A stretch of 64,000 bases of DNA from Streptosporangium saharense (GTDB taxonomy: Bacteria > Actinomycetota > Actinomycetes > Streptosporangiales > Streptosporangiaceae): the NCBI RefSeq assembly GCF_014203715.1, contig NZ_JACHJP010000001.1:722432-786431 (forward strand), read 5' to 3'. The translations under genes were made by a program, and so were the position numbers. Shown piece by piece: positions 951 through 7,553 of this stretch; positions within the stretch are counted from its first letter, which is position 1, and every line of letters begins with the position of its first letter. The notes under the pieces were generated by a model. It searched no databases and had not been told where the DNA came from. It saw nothing but the letters and a program-made list of their open reading frames with translations.

Positions 951-989
951 ATGTCGGCATATTTGCGGTATTTGGCGGATCGGCGCCTC

Positions 990-1150
990 GTGTCATGATG
1001 GCGGAAAGGCGAGCGGGGACGAGGAAGCCGGTGTGAGTCCGGCGCGGTCCCGCCACTGTGATCGGCGAGCGGATCCCCACGTGGTCACCGCCCCTGACGG
1101 GGTGGGAAGACGGGGACGAGCATCGACCCGAGAGCCAGGAGACTCACCCG
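990..1150 (+). promoter_or_regulatory. Adenosylcobalamin riboswitch
   Basis: The conserved core is recognisable: GAAGCCGGTGTGAGTCCGGC from 1024, then a GGTCCCGCCACTGTGA element ending at 1061, and the B12-box AGCCAGGAGAC at 1133-1143. These are the hallmark core segments of cobalamin riboswitches (J3/4-J6/3 region and the L5-docking B12 box). It lies in the leader of the fhuF-like/peptide/YcaO operon, so that operon should be off when cobalamin is abundant. Outer boundaries are approximate. A self-complementary CTCCCCGGGGAG at 1179-1190 downstream may belong to the expression platform. Confidence 0.92.
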
Positions 1151-1225
1151 GTCGCCTCCTCGATGAGCTGGGGCGGATCTCCCCGGGGAGGAGCGGGTCG
1201 TCATCCAGGTGCTTGCCGTCCTGAG

Positions 1226-1248
1226 GGCTCCCTTCGCGGAAGGGAGCC
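1226..1248 (+). promoter_or_regulatory. Hairpin between riboswitch and first gene
   Basis: GGCTCCCTT (1226-1234) and AAGGGAGCC (1240-1248) form a perfect 9-bp stem with a CGCGG loop. A run of five T lies about 16 bases later (1264-1268), too far for a textbook intrinsic terminator. It may be the regulated element of the riboswitch expression platform or a Rho-associated pause; which one cannot be decided by eye. Confidence 0.45.
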
Positions 1249-1346
1249 GGGGGACGAGCTGACCTTTTTCCTCGAACCAGCCGGGCGTGAGGTCCGGCCA
1301 TTTCGACATGCGTTCCTGTGATTCCGGAGAACGGAGAAACAGCGCT

Positions 1347-2039
1347 ATGGAAACACTTCGACCGGCGTCTTCAGAATCAGTTGTCACCGCCCTCGGGGAG
1401 GTGGCGAAAATCGGTTCCTTCTTCGCGATCGACATCGGTGCCGGCGGCGCAGGATGGCACGACGTGAATGCCGACTACGCGCGTGGTTTCACCGACCTGG
1501 TGGAGGCGGTCGCCGCGAGGTACGGCACCGGAGAACTGCGGATCGGCGCCTCCATCGCCCAGCTCGGACACGCCGCCAGGCTGTGGTCGCCGCTGCTGGC
1601 CACCGTGCTCGGCCATGGCCTGGTGCTCGACCTGCGCCGCCTCGAACGCGCCGACGACGGACCGAGGCTGCGCCTGCCAACGGTCTCCGGCTGGCACGCG
1701 GAGACGGAAGACCAGGTCACGGGCCTGCTGTACAACATGGTCGTGCGCGGTCACCTGGAACCGCTGGCCGCCGGACTGCGGGTCAAGGTCGCCCCCGGAC
1801 TGCTGTACGGCAACGCCGCCTCGGCGCTCGTCGAGGCGGGCCGGGCGATCGTGGCCGCCCGCCCCGAGCTGACGGCCCCGGCCACCCGGCTGGTCACCGC
1901 CCTGCTCGGCCACGGCGCCCTGACCGGGAAAGGCGTGATCACCTCACCGGCCCTGGCATTTCGCCGTACCACCTGCTGCCTTTATTACCGGGTGCCCGAC
2001 GGGGTCAAATGCGACGACTGCTCGCTGGCCGGAAAGTGA
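1347..2039 (+). CDS. FhuF-family (2Fe-2S) metal-chelate reductase-like protein
   Basis: FhuF-type proteins carry a C-terminal [2Fe-2S] cluster and reduce ferric siderophores to release the metal. The C-terminus shows the family's Cys-Cys-x10-Cys-x2-Cys arrangement (CCLYYRVPDGVKCDDC), and the preceding region has the usual alpha-helical, low-charge FhuF character; 230 aa is a normal length. ATG 1347 is chosen because ACGGAGAA lies 9 bases upstream; an in-frame GTG/ATG at 1287 has no ribosome site. It is the first gene after the cobalamin riboswitch and precedes a peptide/YcaO/MATE set. A role in reducing a cobalt (or iron) chelate formed by that system is inferred, not shown. Confidence 0.8.
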   Translation: METLRPASSESVVTALGEVAKIGSFFAIDIGAGGAGWHDVNADYARGFTDLVEAVAARYGTGELRIGASIAQLGHAARLWSPLLATVLGHGLVLDLRRLERADDGPRLRLPTVSGWHAETEDQVTGLLYNMVVRGHLEPLAAGLRVKVAPGLLYGNAASALVEAGRAIVAARPELTAPATRLVTALLGHGALTGKGVITSPALAFRRTTCCLYYRVPDGVKCDDCSLAGK

Positions 2040-2147
2040 GTTCTTGAATTTCCCCGGCCGCCATGCTTATTGTGCTTTCGCAAGGAGTTCGCAAATGCGT
2101 ATCACTTGCAGTTGGCCGGTGATGCGCGCGACCGAAGGAGGACGCAC

Positions 2148-2255
2148 ATGGCGCACCACGGTTTCGACGAACCCGAGGGCACGGAGTCGTGCCTGAAGTC
2201 CCACACCCCCGCGGTCGACGCGCCCTTCGAGTGGCGTGAGGACGACGACGAGTAA
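2148..2255 (+). CDS. 35-residue acidic peptide, candidate RiPP precursor
   Basis: A short frame with a very strong ribosome site (AAGGAGG, 2135-2141, spacing 6) and nearly all G/C third positions encodes a 35-aa peptide. It starts MAHHGFDEPEGTESCLK and ends in an acidic tail, WREDDDE. It contains one Cys, two Ser, two Thr, three His and eleven Asp/Glu. It sits directly before a TOMM-type cyclodehydratase fusion, the classical place for a precursor peptide. The residues such an enzyme could cyclise (Thr12, Ser14, Cys15, Ser18, Thr20) lie mid-peptide. His, Cys and the carboxylates could bind a metal. No known leader or core family is recognised; the precursor role is inferred from context. Confidence 0.75.
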   Translation: MAHHGFDEPEGTESCLKSHTPAVDAPFEWREDDDE

Positions 2256-2310
2256 CCCCGGGGCCGGGGTTCCCCAGGCCCCGGCCACACCCTTGACTGG
2301 AGGAGCACAG

Positions 2311-4149
2311 GTGCGACGACCCCGCGTGCTGGTCGAGGGAGCGGGCGCGCTCGCGCGGCGGACAGCCGTACTGCTCGCGGCCGTCGGCGAGGTCGTCACC
2401 GAGGGGGACGCCGACCTGGTCGTCTCGTGCGCCGTCGGGCTGCCCGACGAGCACTGGTGCGACCTCGACCTCCGGCTGGCCGAGGCGGGCGTCCCGTGGC
2501 ACCGCGCCCACACCGAGTCGGGACGGGTCCGCGTCGGGCCGTTCACCCGGGCCGGTGGGGTCACCTACCGCGACGCGCGGACCCGGCTGCTGGCCGCCAC
2601 CGGCGAGCTTCCCCCGGCCGACGACGAGGGGGAGATCCACCCCGAGGTCGTCGAGGTCGCGGCGGCGATGCTGGCCGCGGAGGTCGTGACGCACCTCACG
2701 GGCGGCGCCGTACCCGAGCACGAGCTGACGATCGAGGCGGGCCAGGCCGTCACGGTCACCGCGCGGCCGGTGCTGCCGCTGCCCGGCGGCCCGCCGACCC
2801 CCTCCAGGGAACACGAGGGGAGGGAACGGCTGCTGGTCGGCGACAGGTTCGGGCCGGTCAGGAGGGTACGGCGGGACCGGCGACGCGCGCCGGACCCACG
2901 GAACCTGGTCTCCTACTCCGCCTATCTGGCGCATCATCCCCGGCTCACGCCGTGGGTGGCCGACCCGGTGACCGGGGGAGCGACCCTGGGCGACGACGAG
3001 GCCGCCCGGTGGGCGGCGATCGGCGAGGCTGCCGAACGTTACTGCGGCAACCACGTCCCCGAGGACCTGCCCCGCGCGGCCTATCGCGACCTGGGCGACT
3101 CCGCCGTGGACCCCCGGACCTTCGCGCTGTACTCCAAGAGCCAGTACGACGCCCATGGCTTCCCGTTCACGCCGATGACGGCCGACCTGGAGATCGCCTG
3201 GACCTCCGCCGTGGACCTGGAGGACGGACGGGACGTCCTGGTGCCCGCCTCCCTGGCCTACGTCAACTACTTCCGTGGCTCTCACAGGGACGAGCCGCCG
3301 ACCAACTACCCCCTGCTGGCCGGTACGGCGGCCGCGGACTCGCCGGAGCGGGCCCGTGAGGCGGCGCTGCGGGAGGTGCTGGAACGCGACGCGGTCACCC
3401 TGTGGTGGCAGAGCGGCGCCCCCGCCTCCCCCCTCCCCGTGCCGGGTGAGGGCCCGCTGGCCGACGCGCTCCACGAGGCAGCGGAGGCGGGGCTCACGGT
3501 GTCGCTGCTGCGGGTGCCCTCGGCGTTCGACGCGATGGTGGCGGCGGTGTTCGTCGAGGACACGCGGCGGCACGTCGTGGGGTTCGGCAGCGCCTGCCGT
3601 ACCACCGCGGAGGAGGCGGCGAGCAAGGCGTTCACCGAGGCGATCGGCACCTACCAGACGGGGCTCGACCTGCTGGACGAGGAGAGCGGCTTCTGGCGCG
3701 GGGTCCGCTCCGGCACCGTCGAGCGGCGGCCGTACCTGCCCTATCGCGCCGACCGCGCCTACCTGGACGGACTGCGGCCCGGCTGGCGCGACCTCAACGA
3801 CGTGCGCGTCAACGTCCAGGTGTATCTCGACGAACGCATGCAGGACGCGGCCCTCGACCGGTTGCGCGTCCCCGTCGGCCCACCGCTGCCCGCCGAGACC
3901 GTCGGCCCGTGGCGGTCGCTGGCCGGGCGGGGGCTGCGGCCGTACGCGGTGGACCTGACGACCCGCGACGTGCGGGCGGCGGGGCTCAGCGTGGCGCGCG
4001 TCATGGTCCCCGGCCTGTACGGCAACGCCCCGGCGGCCTTCCCGTTCCTTGGCGGGACCCGGCTGCTGACCGAGCCCGTGGCCCGTGGCTGGGTGCCGGG
4101 GCCGTTGACCGAGGACGACCTGTGGCGACGGCCCCTGCCGTTCGCCTGA
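2311..4149 (+). CDS. TOMM cyclodehydratase fusion: E1-like leader-binding domain plus YcaO domain
   Basis: YcaO enzymes use ATP to phosphorylate a backbone amide, making azolines (or thioamides) in peptides. Residues 1 to about 190 resemble the E1-like partner domain: a glycine-rich beta-strand start (VLVEGAGALARRTA) and a VGPFTRAGGVTYRDARTR segment matching the usual 'GP-PG-C-C-R' region but lacking its zinc cysteines. Residues from about 210 to 612 are YcaO, with ATP-site glutamates in GEAAERYCG and LREVLERDAV. The C-terminus PLPFA is one residue off the PxPxP end typical of azoline-forming YcaOs. GTG 2311 follows GGAGGAG at 2299-2305; a GTG at 2236 overlaps the peptide gene and lacks a site. 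It should modify the peptide encoded just upstream. Confidence 0.85.
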   Translation: MRRPRVLVEGAGALARRTAVLLAAVGEVVTEGDADLVVSCAVGLPDEHWCDLDLRLAEAGVPWHRAHTESGRVRVGPFTRAGGVTYRDARTRLLAATGELPPADDEGEIHPEVVEVAAAMLAAEVVTHLTGGAVPEHELTIEAGQAVTVTARPVLPLPGGPPTPSREHEGRERLLVGDRFGPVRRVRRDRRRAPDPRNLVSYSAYLAHHPRLTPWVADPVTGGATLGDDEAARWAAIGEAAERYCGNHVPEDLPRAAYRDLGDSAVDPRTFALYSKSQYDAHGFPFTPMTADLEIAWTSAVDLEDGRDVLVPASLAYVNYFRGSHRDEPPTNYPLLAGTAAADSPERAREAALREVLERDAVTLWWQSGAPASPLPVPGEGPLADALHEAAEAGLTVSLLRVPSAFDAMVAAVFVEDTRRHVVGFGSACRTTAEEAASKAFTEAIGTYQTGLDLLDEESGFWRGVRSGTVERRPYLPYRADRAYLDGLRPGWRDLNDVRVNVQVYLDERMQDAALDRLRVPVGPPLPAETVGPWRSLAGRGLRPYAVDLTTRDVRAAGLSVARVMVPGLYGNAPAAFPFLGGTRLLTEPVARGWVPGPLTEDDLWRRPLPFA

Positions 4150-4173
4150 CCTTATTCATTCCTGGGGGAGCGT

Positions 4174-5196
4174 ATGCGGCTGGGACTGGCCATGGGGTAC
4201 GGCGGAGCGCCCATGGAGCGGGTGCTCCCGGTGATCCGGCACGCCGAGCGGATCGGCGTCGACTCGGTGTGGAGCGTCGAGGAGTACGGCCCCGACGCCG
4301 TCAGCGTGCTGGGCTACCTGGCCGCCGTGACCGAGCGGATCGAACTGGGCACCGCGATCATGCAGATCCCCGCCCGCACCCCCGCGGCCACGGCGATGGC
4401 CGCGATGACCCTCGACGTGCTGTCCAACGGGCGCTTCCAGCTCGGTCTCGGCCTGTCGGTCCCGTGGATCGTCGAGGGCTGGCACGGCCTGCCGTACGAG
4501 CGGCCACTGCGCAGGACCCGCGAGTACGTCGAGATCGTACGGCGGGCCATCGCGCACGAGGACCGCGTCCACTACGACGGGCAGATCTACACGCTTCCCT
4601 ACCGGGGGCCGGGATCGACGGGCCGGGCCAGGCCGGTCCGCTCGGAGATGACCCCGCTGCGCCCGGACATCCCCATCTACCTGGCCGCCATCGGCCCCGG
4701 CAACCTCGCTCTCACCGGGGAACTCGCCGACGGCTGGCTGTCCGGGATGTACGCCCCCGAGCACGAGGCCGCGATCCTGGCCCCGCTTGAGGAGGGTCTC
4801 GCCCGGGCCGGACGCGCCCGCGACGCCGTGAAGATCTGCCCCATCCTGTACGTCGCCCGCGCCCGCACCGTCGCCGAGGGCCGTGACAAGCTGCGGCCCC
4901 TGTACGCCCACCTGATCGGCGCGGCCTCTCCCGGCGTCCGCAACACCTACGCCGACGTCGTCGCCCAGATGGGCTACGAGGGCGCGGCGCACGACGTGCG
5001 CAAACACTTCGCCGACGGCGACAGGGCGGCGGCAGCGGCGGCGGTGCCCGACCGGCTGCTCGACGAGGTCGCGCTGCTCGGTCCCGTCGAGGCCATCGTG
5101 GACCGGCTCGCCGCCTGGCGGGAGTCCCGGGTGGACACGCTCATCCTGCTCGACCGGGACACCGAGCTGCTGGAAGCCGCGCGAGCCGCCCTGTGA
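4174..5196 (+). CDS. LLM-class (luciferase-like, F420-type) oxidoreductase
   Basis: A TIM-barrel flavin/F420-dependent oxidoreductase of 340 aa, start ATG with GGGGGAG upstream. Seen features are the N-terminal barrel strand MRLGLAMGYGG, the LGTAIMQIPARTP loop, LGLGLSVPWIVEGWHG and the DIPIYLAAIGPGNLALTGELADGWL segment typical of F420-dependent members. It lies 24 bp after the cyclodehydratase and overlaps the MATE gene by 4 bp, so it is an operon member. In azole-forming RiPP systems an FMN dehydrogenase oxidises azolines; here this protein may supply a redox tailoring step. Two other copies of this subfamily occur in the 35-59 kb island, so an unrelated role is also possible. Confidence 0.85.
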   Translation: MRLGLAMGYGGAPMERVLPVIRHAERIGVDSVWSVEEYGPDAVSVLGYLAAVTERIELGTAIMQIPARTPAATAMAAMTLDVLSNGRFQLGLGLSVPWIVEGWHGLPYERPLRRTREYVEIVRRAIAHEDRVHYDGQIYTLPYRGPGSTGRARPVRSEMTPLRPDIPIYLAAIGPGNLALTGELADGWLSGMYAPEHEAAILAPLEEGLARAGRARDAVKICPILYVARARTVAEGRDKLRPLYAHLIGAASPGVRNTYADVVAQMGYEGAAHDVRKHFADGDRAAAAAAVPDRLLDEVALLGPVEAIVDRLAAWRESRVDTLILLDRDTELLEAARAAL

Positions 5197-6491
5197 ACGA
5201 GCCGTCCATGCGGCGGCTGTGGGCGCTGGCGGTTCCGCTGCTGGTCGCGGGGCTGACGCAGATCATCGTCAACCTCGTGGACACGGTGCTGCTGGCCCGG
5301 CTGTCCACCCGGTCCCTGAGCGCCTTCGCCCTGGCCGCCCCGTTGTATCTGGTCGCGCTGGTCGTCGTCCGTGGCTGGGCGACAGCCGTACAGGTCAAGG
5401 TCGCTCGGGCGCACGGAGCCGGTGCGCCGGGGGAGGTCGTCCAGGTCGTCCGGCTCGGGCTGGTCACCTCCGCGGGCGCCGGACTCGCCATCGGTGCCGT
5501 CCTGTACGGCGTCGCCGAACCGGTGCTGACCGCGCTGGGCGCCACGGCCGAGATCATCGAACCGGGCGTCTCCTACCTGCGCGTCCTGGCGTTCGCGGTG
5601 CCGTTCGCCGCCGCGTCGTTCACGCTGCAGGGGGCCTGCGCCGGGATCGGGATCACCCGGGCGGCCATGTACCACGCGCTCCTGGTCAACGTGGTGAACC
5701 TGCCGCTGGGGCTGTTGCTGATCTTCTCCTTCGGCCTGGGCGTGACGGGCGCGGCCCTCGCCACCCTGGCCGCGACCGTGGCGGGGACGGCCTTCCTGCT
5801 GGCGTACTCCCGGACCCGGCTGCCCTCGGTGGCTCCCGTGGACACCGGCGCGGTGGTGCGCGGGCTGTGGGCCATCGGCTGGCCGGAGATGAGCGCGATG
5901 GGCGTCGGCTACGTCAACGAGGCGCTGATCGCCGGATTCGCGGCCAGGATCGGCACCCCGGAGCTGGGCGCCTACCGGATCGTGGACAACCTGCTGCTCG
6001 TCGTCTTCACCGTGATGGGCTCGGTCGCGGCCCCGATCAGCATCCTGGCGGGACACGAACTGGGGGCTGGCGACCCGGCCCGCGCCGAACGGTGGCGCCG
6101 CACCGGGCAACGGCTGCTGCTGGCCGTGTACGCGGTCCCGGCCGTCCTCGCCCTGACCCTGGGCCGTCCCCTGCTGTCCCTGGTGACCGAGGACGCCACC
6201 ATCGCCGACCTCGCCTGGCAGGCGGTGCCGCTGGCCGTACTGAGCCTGGCCCCGATGGTGCCCGCCATGTCCTACGGCTGCCTGCTGCGCGCCATGGGCG
6301 ACACCCGCTCCGTCATGATCGGCAATGTCGCCGGGGACTATCTGGTCCTCGTCCCCCTGGCGTGGTTCCTGGCCGTCCCCGGCGGGTGGGGGCTGCCGGG
6401 GATCTACGTGGCGTGGGTCGCGTTCACGGTGGTGCTGGCGATCTTCCTGGGGGCGCGTGTTCGGGTACGGCTACGCGTGGGCGTCGGGTAG
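5193..6491 (+). CDS. MATE-family multidrug/toxin efflux transporter
   Basis: A 432-aa integral membrane protein with about twelve hydrophobic helices and internal twofold repetition (helix block 1 starts MRRLWALAVPLLVAGLTQ, block 2 starts near GLWAIGWPEMSAMG). MATE proteins exchange Na+ or H+ for organic substrates. The GTG start overlaps the LLM stop (GTGA), indicating translational coupling. As the last gene of the riboswitch-led unit it is the natural exporter for the modified peptide. No ABC importer or protease is seen in the unit. Confidence 0.88.
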   Translation: MNEPSMRRLWALAVPLLVAGLTQIIVNLVDTVLLARLSTRSLSAFALAAPLYLVALVVVRGWATAVQVKVARAHGAGAPGEVVQVVRLGLVTSAGAGLAIGAVLYGVAEPVLTALGATAEIIEPGVSYLRVLAFAVPFAAASFTLQGACAGIGITRAAMYHALLVNVVNLPLGLLLIFSFGLGVTGAALATLAATVAGTAFLLAYSRTRLPSVAPVDTGAVVRGLWAIGWPEMSAMGVGYVNEALIAGFAARIGTPELGAYRIVDNLLLVVFTVMGSVAAPISILAGHELGAGDPARAERWRRTGQRLLLAVYAVPAVLALTLGRPLLSLVTEDATIADLAWQAVPLAVLSLAPMVPAMSYGCLLRAMGDTRSVMIGNVAGDYLVLVPLAWFLAVPGGWGLPGIYVAWVAFTVVLAIFLGARVRVRLRVGVG

Positions 6492-6722
6492 CCGGTCTTG
6501 TCGTGTGGCGGTCTTGCCGTACGGCGGGCTGGTGGTGCGGCGGGTTGGTTGTACGGGGGGCTTGGTCGTGAGGCGGGCTTGCCGTAGGCGGCTTTGGTAT
6601 GCGGCGGTGCGGCGGTTTGTGGTGGCGCGGGGATCTGTGGTGGCGCGGTTCTTCTTCCGATAGTGGGCCTTATGGGGAGATCTGTCCGAAAACGGCTGGG
6701 ACGGGTTTGCGATGATCAGCGG
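6492..6722. other. Gene-free G-rich low-complexity spacer
   Basis: After the MATE stop the top strand becomes strongly G/T-biased with many GGCGG, GGTGG and CTTG words (6492-6660), unlike the coding DNA around it. It contains an 18-bp-period direct repeat (see 6618-6648). No gene with plausible codon usage is seen. Several G-runs could form quadruplex-like structure on the + strand. Confidence 0.5.
6618..6648 (+). repeat. Two copies of TGTGGTGGCGCGG, 18 bp apart
   Basis: TGTGGTGGCGCGG occurs at 6618-6630 and again at 6636-6648, inside the G-rich spacer before the ion-channel gene. Function unknown; probably slippage-derived. Confidence 0.8.
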
Positions 6723-7553
6723 GTGAACTTCCATTCCCCCGGGGCCGATCAGGTGTCGATACGAGAACGTGTTCGCCGCATCCTCGAAAGTTCTCGTCTG
6801 CAGCGGACCGTGGTCGCGGTCATCGTGATCAACGCGATCACGATCGGCTGCGAGACGTCCTCCTACCTCGTCGAGCACCTCGGCGGGCTGCTCCACGTCG
6901 TCGACAGGATCGCGGTGGCGGTCTTCGCCGTGGAACTCGCCGCCCGGCTCTACGCCTACCGTGGGGACTTCTTCCGCGACCCGTGGAACTGGTTCGACAC
7001 GATCATCGTGAGCATCGCCCTGATCCCGGCCTCGGGGCCGACCTCGATCCTGCGCACGATGCGGATCCTGCGCGCGCTACGCCTGGTGTCGGCCATCTCC
7101 AGCATGCGCAACGTCATCGACGCCCTGCTGTCGGCCATTCCCGGCATGCTGTCGATCGTCGGCCTGCTCGTCCTTGTCATGTACGTCTCGGCCGTCCTGG
7201 CGACGCAGTTGTTCGGGGGAATCGCCCCGGAGTACTTCGCCGAACTGCCCACCTCACTGTTCACCCTGTTCCAGGTCATGACCGGTGAGGCGTGGCCCGA
7301 CATCGCCGAGAAGGTGATGGCGCAGCAACCGTGGGCGTGGGTGTTCTTCGTCGGCTACATCCTGATGACCACCTTCGTGGTCCTGAACCTGTTCATCGCC
7401 GTCGTGGTCAACGCGATGGACGACCAGAACACCTCGGCCGAGGAACAACGCACCGAGGACCACCTGGCCGACATCGCCGTGGAACTGGCCCGCCTCCACG
7501 CCAAAATCGACGCCCTCCAGTCCCACCAAACAGCGACCGAACCCACGACCTGA
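6723..7553 (+). CDS. Six-TM voltage-gated-type cation channel, one domain
   Basis: A single-domain ion-transport protein of about 276 aa. S1 is TVVAVIVINAITIG and S2-S3 lie around VELAARLYAY and WFDTIIVSIALIP. S4 has four arginines at every third position (RTMRILRALR). S5 ends in VLATQLFG and is followed by a pore loop FQVMTGEAWPDI and an S6, VVLNLFIAVVVNAM. A charged C-terminal helix follows (about the last 40 residues), as in NaChBac-type channels where it tetramerises. The TGEAW filter differs from the TLESW filter of bacterial Nav channels and resembles a eukaryotic Cav repeat. GTG 6723 is tentative: no good ribosome site is visible, and GTG 6753 is an alternative. Confidence 0.85.
   Translation: MNFHSPGADQVSIRERVRRILESSRLQRTVVAVIVINAITIGCETSSYLVEHLGGLLHVVDRIAVAVFAVELAARLYAYRGDFFRDPWNWFDTIIVSIALIPASGPTSILRTMRILRALRLVSAISSMRNVIDALLSAIPGMLSIVGLLVLVMYVSAVLATQLFGGIAPEYFAELPTSLFTLFQVMTGEAWPDIAEKVMAQQPWAWVFFVGYILMTTFVVLNLFIAVVVNAMDDQNTSAEEQRTEDHLADIAVELARLHAKIDALQSHQTATEPTT

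Follow-up and report, generated by a model that had tools for sequence, protein, structure and literature searches.

What does a presumably modified peptide do in an operon that is led by a cobalamin riboswitch? The question is raised by a stretch of Streptosporangium saharense DNA of 64,000 nucleotides (contig NZ_JACHJP010000001.1, positions 722,432 to 786,431; hereafter, the window). There, a cobalamin (B12) riboswitch is followed by genes for a FhuF-like protein, a 35-residue peptide, a YcaO enzyme, an F420-dependent oxidoreductase and a MATE exporter. The peptide is a presumed ribosomally synthesized and post-translationally modified peptide (RiPP). In an initial annotation, it was proposed that the peptide scavenges cobalt when B12 is short, and that the FhuF-type protein releases the metal. 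We arrive at a wider reading, to which we give a probability of about 60%: the operon and its closest relatives (class 1) would make a RiPP metallophore for cobalt, released by the FhuF-like protein, and a cousin family (class 2) would make one for nickel.

A conserved, putative RiPP cluster behind a cobalamin riboswitch

The gene set was confirmed by model matches. The covariance search matched the whole Rfam cobalamin model RF00174 (positions 1-189; gathering threshold, 31.5 bits; E = 2.2e-21), and this was the only Rfam match above gathering within the window. The YcaO enzyme matched TIGR03604 (244.5 bits; cut-off, 219.25) and PF02624, both from residue 228. The oxidoreductase matched TIGR03559 (339 bits; cut-off, 335), and the exporter matched TIGR00797 (188 bits; cut-off, 147). 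Two names in the initial annotation stood in part. For the FhuF-type protein, the C-terminal [2Fe-2S] motif alone was recognized (PF11575 FhuF_C, 31.6 bits; cut-off, 20.5), whereas the full-length FhuF models scored under their cut-offs (equivalog TIGR03951, 21.4 bits against 63.85) and the solved FhuF structure matched at E 0.1 only. For the "E1-like/YcaO fusion", the YcaO part is sound; the name E1-like for the part before residue 228 comes from a tblastn match to a protein that cousin clusters encode separately and that falls slightly short of the TIGR03882 cut-off (33.7 and 33.6 against 36.9). A structure prediction of the YcaO protein with this N-terminus was uninformative (one model; mean predicted local distance difference test score, 42.2).

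Related loci were obtained by searching 60 relatives for YcaO and by a single scan across 84,980 species genomes (230 stretches; best 80 of 122 relatives). Class 1 comprises 14 loci (the window; L032; L051, from the same genome as L031; L052-L061; and L200 of genome G261, from searches of the order) in seven genera, including Streptosporangium, Spongiactinospora, Actinomadura, Streptomyces, Nonomuraea and Acrocarpospora. The shared order is riboswitch, substrate-binding protein (SBP), FecCD permease, ATPase, FhuF, peptide, YcaO, LLM-class oxidoreductase (LLM) and MATE. A riboswitch precedes the cluster on the same strand in 12/14 loci, and FhuF lies directly before the peptide in 12/14, the exceptions being L054 and L055. 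The SBP, permease and ATPase are complete inside the cluster in nine loci (L032, L052, L055-L061). Elsewhere, L051 has the SBP alone, the window and L053 have none, L054 has a distant importer, and L200 has an ATPase fragment. Since the same set recurs in 14 loci, it is a real conserved system, beyond chance, and the linkage in actinomycete genomes that the initial annotation proposed to check is kept. The YcaO protein is of the long form in 4 of 13 class-1 loci and of the short form in nine (L200 lies outside this measurement). An essential role of the fusion, as first supposed, is thereby rejected.

The class-1 peptide core, KSHTPAVD[AS]PFEWR, is nearly invariant. Residues K17-S-H-T-P-A-V-D24 and P26-F-E-W-R30 are fixed in 12/12 aligned peptides, and L200 has R for K. 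Over 16 codons of 13 sequences (L199 left out), the proportions of synonymous (pS) and nonsynonymous (pN) differences were 0.35 and 0.045 (pN/pS, 0.13); thus, the codons change and the residues do not. Changes within HTPAVDxPFEW are limited to two loci without YcaO in the fetched 19 kb, L199 (HM for HT) and L189 (HTLAVDAPFEG). The decayed remnant L197 still reads HTPAVDSPFEW. Of the 13 intact peptides of class 1, 8 have Gly in place of the Cys; the Cys-based chelation suggested by the Cys/His content of the window peptide is therefore rejected. Because the core is near-invariant, changes only where no YcaO was found and does not keep the Cys, the pattern points to one fixed product, presumably with its modification on Ser, His, Thr, Asp or Trp and not on the Cys.

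An intact peptide gene is present in 13/14 class-1 loci. In the remaining one, of Acrocarpospora phusangensis (L060:9890-9951), only the last codons are kept, without start and core, and the rest of the class-1 cluster is retained. This genome (G063) also holds a class-2 peptide on another contig. The peptide profile found 1/394 genomes drawn from the class (the own genome) and 21/345 genomes of the order, a count that takes in class 2 and the decayed copies; the two Streptomyces members of class 1 came from the 84,980-genome contig scan, not from the class-wide profile.

Table 1. Features of the operon, with positions in the window
Feature	Position	Strand	Evidence
Cobalamin riboswitch aptamer	965..1165	+	RF00174, 91.5 bits, whole model
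FhuF-like protein, C-terminal [2Fe-2S] motif CC-x10-C-x2-C; putative metal-complex reductase	1347..2039	+	PF11575 match
Promoter-like sequence TTGAAT-N18-TATTGT, before peptide gene	2044..2073	+	Consensus match only
Nur-box-like putative operator TCGCAAGGAGTTCGCAA	2078..2094	+	7/8 fixed positions of TTGC-N9-GCAA
Second, degenerate Nur-like box ATGCGTATCACTTGCAG, 17 bp after the first	2095..2111	+	6/8 positions
Precursor peptide, 35 aa, core KSHTPAVDAPFEWR	2148..2255	+	Open reading frame, conserved in relatives
YcaO enzyme (SagD family), extra N-terminal part seen in only some relatives	2311..4149	+	TIGR03604, PF02624
LLM-class F420-dependent oxidoreductase (Rv3520c subfamily)	4174..5196	+	TIGR03559
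MATE family exporter	5193..6491	+	TIGR00797

Nur-like boxes and the class-2 loci

The riboswitch, taken at first as the sole control, is probably not the only regulatory element. No cobalamin riboswitch was found before the clusters of L054 and L055 even at E up to 1, and the 108-bp gap between the FhuF-like and peptide genes of the window contains a promoter-like sequence and a Nur-box-like operator. An alignment of the upstream regions revealed tandem palindromes, TTGC-N9-GCAA, before the peptide, often repeated 17 bp further on. They match the published Nur box, tTGCaa-N5-ttGCAA, in sequence and spacing (PMC3919588) and are putative Nur-like operators. Within 140 bp before the peptide, a box with at least 7/8 positions was found in 12 of 15 class-1 regions, seven of them exact (L060, which lacks a peptide start, and L197 were left out). 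Before the class-2 peptide, it was found in 8/8 regions, all exact. As a control, 303 GGAG-ATG sites in 26 loci with tandem YcaO genes (see below) gave six boxes at 7/8 or better and no exact one. Across whole loci, exact boxes numbered 16 in 17 class-1-type, 21 in eight class-2 and one in 27 tandem-YcaO loci. Exact boxes were also found across the riboswitch 5' end of L053, L056 and L058, but across none of the other 13 riboswitch starts examined. A promoter-like TTG[AC]NN-N16..19-TANNNT precedes the boxes in 19/22 class-1 and class-2 upstream regions, as compared with 3.5% of shuffles; a stricter promoter scan gave nothing in 850-2350 of the window.

Among solved structures, the nearest to a Fur-family protein of the window genome is 3eyy (187 bits; next, 83), the structure of Nur (PMC7055735). 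An exact Nur-like box lies 93 bp upstream of the sodF gene in the same genome. SodF also occurs in 3/17 class-1-type loci (L054, L057, L197). L057 additionally holds NikA/B, L197 holds NikC, and the window and L032 carry weak Nik-like genes (25-37%).

Class 2 consists of eight loci in eight genomes (L190-L196, L198), two of which, G062 and G063, also carry class-1-type loci. The peptide, MAH..FE......C(V/I)R(A/S)HTPAVD..F.W.ED, is related to that of class 1. The loci carry YcaO and LLM matches, with the YcaO of L192 in two pieces. The SBP, permease and ATPase are complete in 5/8 loci, with parts in L191, L192 and L198, and further ABC ATPase matches in six loci are taken for putative exporters. 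SodF is present in five loci and NikABC in two. No FhuF match was detected in the eight loci, and no riboswitch lies over the clusters. In L198, the peptide is divergent and adjoins a riboswitch-led, class-1-type SBP. YcaO loci lacking both peptide and riboswitch, named in the initial annotation as counter-evidence, were thus encountered by half: class 2 lacks the riboswitch and keeps a related peptide.

Proposed function and its alternatives

In the proposed cycle, YcaO and the F420 enzyme would modify the fixed KSHTPAVDxPFEW core, and MATE would export the product. The modified peptide may bind Ni(II) or Co(II), of which the latter may turn into Co(III). The FecB/FecCD/FecE-type importer would return the metal-peptide complex, and FhuF would reduce the inert Co(III), giving free cobalt for B12 synthesis. 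Low B12, acting on the riboswitch, would raise the importer and FhuF, and the biosynthetic genes by read-through. Low nickel or cobalt would act through the Nur-like operator on the internal promoter, which would drive more expression of peptide, YcaO, LLM and MATE. Class 2, which has Nur-like boxes and its own importer, would be the counterpart for nickel. Co(III) is held in inert complexes that have to be reduced, which is not so for Ni(II). The presence of FhuF in the riboswitch class, with no match in class 2, therefore fits cobalt in the former, and nickel in the latter would need no reductive release.

A scavenging system needs an importer, and the presence of a complete one of metal-chelate type in 9/14 clusters lends the first proposal partial support, as does the conserved linkage; sole riboswitch control, Cys chelation and the essential fusion are the parts that were lost. 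In the window genome, an orthologous importer (74/85/81% identical) is located on contig 9, directly after its own cobalamin riboswitch. Thus, the system is split there into two units with the same sensor. The genomes of L053 (G325) and L054 (G332) also have a riboswitch-led importer elsewhere (L224 and L223, respectively). In the 345 genomes of the order, the class-1 SBP (matches at E up to 1e-110) occurs in 50 and the class-1 or class-2 peptide in 21, with an overlap of 18 (hypergeometric, 3.8e-14, kinship ignored). When 13 genomes with SBP and peptide at one place are removed, 5/8 remain (P = 6e-4, kinship ignored).

We consider corrinoid salvage unlikely; in that case, the importer would carry cobalamin or cobinamide, FhuF would reduce corrinoid cobalt, and the RiPP would either assist by binding corrinoids or be a passenger with no part in the process. 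In favor of this alternative, a cobalamin riboswitch stands immediately before the importer in all 18 loci that were chosen and fetched from the 50 with the SBP; FhuF accompanies it in 13 (partial in two), no peptide match was found in any, and L209 holds YcaO remnants. BtuC is also among the best models for the permease, below cut-off. However, the BtuF model gives the SBP only 56.5 (cut-off, 234), as compared with 117 from the model of EitA, a siderophore SBP, and 190 from TIGR03868; none of these scores reaches its cut-off. Among solved structures, unnamed periplasmic binding proteins come closest (165 bits), far ahead of BtuF (40 bits). A homologous importer, complete in 5/8 clusters, lies behind Nur-like boxes in class 2, with no riboswitch over it, and the window genome has cobalamin-synthesis genes, such as cobN, and another BtuF-like SBP (81.6 against the BtuF model, also below 234). 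The F420-0 transporter models (TIGR03868/03869/03873) were the best-named ones for the importer and were rejected, every score being under cut-off.

Quite unlikely, in our estimate, is that both classes make a nickelophore and that the riboswitch mirrors cross-talk between the supplies of nickel and cobalt. Nur-like boxes stand before the peptide in both classes, SodF genes are neighbors, and two class-2 loci have NikABC. In L054, a class-1 peptide is accompanied by an importer whose distance from the class-1 importer is similar to that of the class-2 importers; a box immediately precedes its SBP, and sodF is close by. Nickel alone, however, leaves unexplained the riboswitch in 12/14 class-1 clusters and all 18 fetched importer loci, and FhuF in class 1 but not class 2. 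Improbable is a signalling or antagonistic RiPP, with B12 or metal shortage as a mere cue: the authors of the streptamidine study, who had proposed metal import for their actinobacterial RiPP, suggest signalling or development instead after finding no metal binding (PMC8442711), but a weapon would hardly call for its own importer and reductase, loci with decayed biosynthesis (L189, L197, L209) still keep the importer, and the core is near-invariant, not diversified.

Several results weigh against the metallophore reading. The strongest, as we judge it, is that streptamidine bound none of Fe, Co, Cu, Mg, Mn, Ni and Zn; the mutant, moreover, had no metal-starvation phenotype (PMC8442711). Nur is described as nickel-specific and not cobalt-sensing (PMC3919588). 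The window box is 7/8 and not exact (the aligned place in L051 is exact), four further 7/8 boxes lie inside the window, and boxes of 7/8 or better occur at 0.26 per kb across the loci (exact, 0.07 per kb). L053, L189 and L199 reach only 6/8 before the peptide. L054 and L055 have neither riboswitch nor FhuF before the cluster. No expression platform of the riboswitch was recognized: a strong hairpin lies near 1226-1248, but segment 1166-1290 reached a z of 0.41 when compared with shuffled sequences. A protease gene did not turn up in the operon. The window genome already has CbtAB besides the other BtuF-like SBP, so the RiPP would be a system for scarcity. Finally, 35 of the 50 SBP genomes have no class-1 peptide gene (three have a class-2 peptide), and 15 have one, truncated or decayed ones of G063, G013, G062 and G330 counted. 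The importer may thus carry something else or serve foreign complexes. No exact Nur-like box was found in the 18 fetched importer loci, and import there may therefore be under the riboswitch alone.

The importer without biosynthesis is compatible with receiver-only strains, as known for siderophores, and also with a corrinoid importer. L189 retains importer and FhuF, and L197 the importer; for peptide, YcaO, LLM and MATE, both loci show broken copies or no match, the contig of L197 ending 2 kb further on. In L199, the importer is decaying as well. L212 and L220 keep riboswitch, importer, FhuF and MATE, without matches for peptide, YcaO and LLM; the MATE protein may recycle the imported carrier there.

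Related systems and neighboring genes

The class-1 family is a new variant among streptamidine-like YcaO RiPPs. The streptamidine (ami) clusters, like ours, are actinobacterial and combine a YcaO RiPP, a FecBCDE-type importer and a flavin-dependent dehydrogenase; they possess two ABC transporters (PMC8442711), and class 2 appears to do so too. Unlike them, class 1 has MATE and FhuF. The ALV motif of streptamidine-like precursors is absent from the 22 class-1 and class-2 peptides. The ami clusters also contain amiB and the hydrolase gene amiC, whereas the window has no room for either between peptide and MATE; ami proteins were not used as queries, and genes like amiB and amiC could lie elsewhere in the genome. 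A riboswitch or Nur box is not mentioned in the passages of the streptamidine study covered here (PMC8442711).

The 27 tandem-YcaO loci (L033, L062-L076, L079-L082, L084, L085, L087, L088, L090-L092) are taken for the "motif B" subset of that study (PMC8442711). They share with class 1 a related YcaO (up to 48% identical), a TIGR03882-like protein and, in most, FecCD, ATPase and SBP, and the precursor end HTPF.W can be aligned with HTPAVD..F.W of classes 1 and 2. They differ by two YcaO genes, a repeated ALV core and a CocE/NonD hydrolase. No cobalamin riboswitch was found in the six loci examined (L033, L034, L035, L062, L064, L067), and no Nur-like boxes were found at tandem-YcaO precursors. 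SodF was found in 0/27 loci, with one weak NikA-like match. Instead, Zur-like palindromes precede the precursors (consensus TGANAANNNTTNTCA, taken from PMC5472717). Among ten loci (the own genome's L033, 6091-6282; L063-L065, L067, L069, L070, L076, L079, L091), four were full matches, six reached at least 9/10 and eight at least 8/10, against a background of 0.05 per kb at 9/10 or better. Because of these Zur-box-like palindromes, a zinc role of the tandem-YcaO branch is suggested. It is tempting, though tentative, to see in these families a superfamily of YcaO-made metallophores in Actinobacteria, each branch under the sensor of its metal: Zur-like for zinc (tandem YcaO), Nur for nickel (class 2), and riboswitch plus Nur for cobalt (class 1), with FhuF only where reductive release is needed.

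To our knowledge, neither a dedicated cobaltophore nor a ribosomal nickelophore has been described before; class 1 would be the former and class 2 the latter. If this is confirmed, a new route of metal capture would be open to study. It would give B12 makers an extra way of acquiring cobalt and would imply a siderophore-like ecology of public goods and receiver-only strains. For the widespread streptamidine-like RiPPs, whose function is described as unknown in the streptamidine study (PMC8442711), the question is now directly testable, since the regulatory evidence names metals and strains to test.

Other known systems share single features with the operon. Methanobactin, a RiPP chalkophore, is a ribosomal peptide metallophore with a MATE exporter, as proposed here; it is not known to involve a YcaO enzyme, and its metal is another one. 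The model of its exporter MbnM (NCBIfam) is far from the window MATE (38.5 against a cut-off of 285). FhuF-type siderophore reductases have the C-terminal [2Fe-2S] motif (PF11575) in common with the window protein and differ in that their full-length models stay below cut-off here and in its linkage to a cobalamin riboswitch. The Nur regulon of Streptomyces coelicolor (nikABCDE, sodF) has the same box spacing (PMC3919588, PMC7055735), and the likeness extends to sodF or nik genes beside several clusters and to the Nur-like protein of the window genome. A RiPP cluster as a Nur target does not occur in the passages of those two reports covered here. We found no description of a cobalt metallophore or a cobalamin-riboswitch-controlled RiPP in the literature searched, with most subscription papers and bioRxiv outside it. 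By title, papers pairing "cobalamin riboswitch" with "RiPP" concern other subjects, and none pairs it with "YcaO". By title and abstract start, papers naming streptamidine are the original study and strain or genome reports.

As for the surroundings, the window begins within nrdB (9-899), and an ion-channel protein (PF00520, 147 bits) is encoded just downstream of the operon, and outside it, at 6594-7553. Another cobalamin riboswitch, G000:C1:719587-719792 (L039:7588-7793), lies 3.6 kb upstream of the one of the operon and precedes the presumed nrdAB, with an open reading frame of 884 codons, taken for nrdA, between it and nrdB. Cobalamin riboswitches were also found before cobN and cbtBA (Pfam names), the latter followed by chelatase-, CobO- and CobB-like proteins (named by eye). 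A second FhuF-like gene (L203:8888-9691) lies behind its own cobalamin riboswitch, G000:C2:917723-917871 (45.9 bits). A further cobalamin riboswitch (87.7 bits), G000:C2:910886-911064 (L203:2887-3065), stands directly before genes for an aldehyde dehydrogenase and an acyl-CoA dehydrogenase-like protein; the former appears by eye to be a methylmalonate-semialdehyde dehydrogenase, an unexpected riboswitch target.

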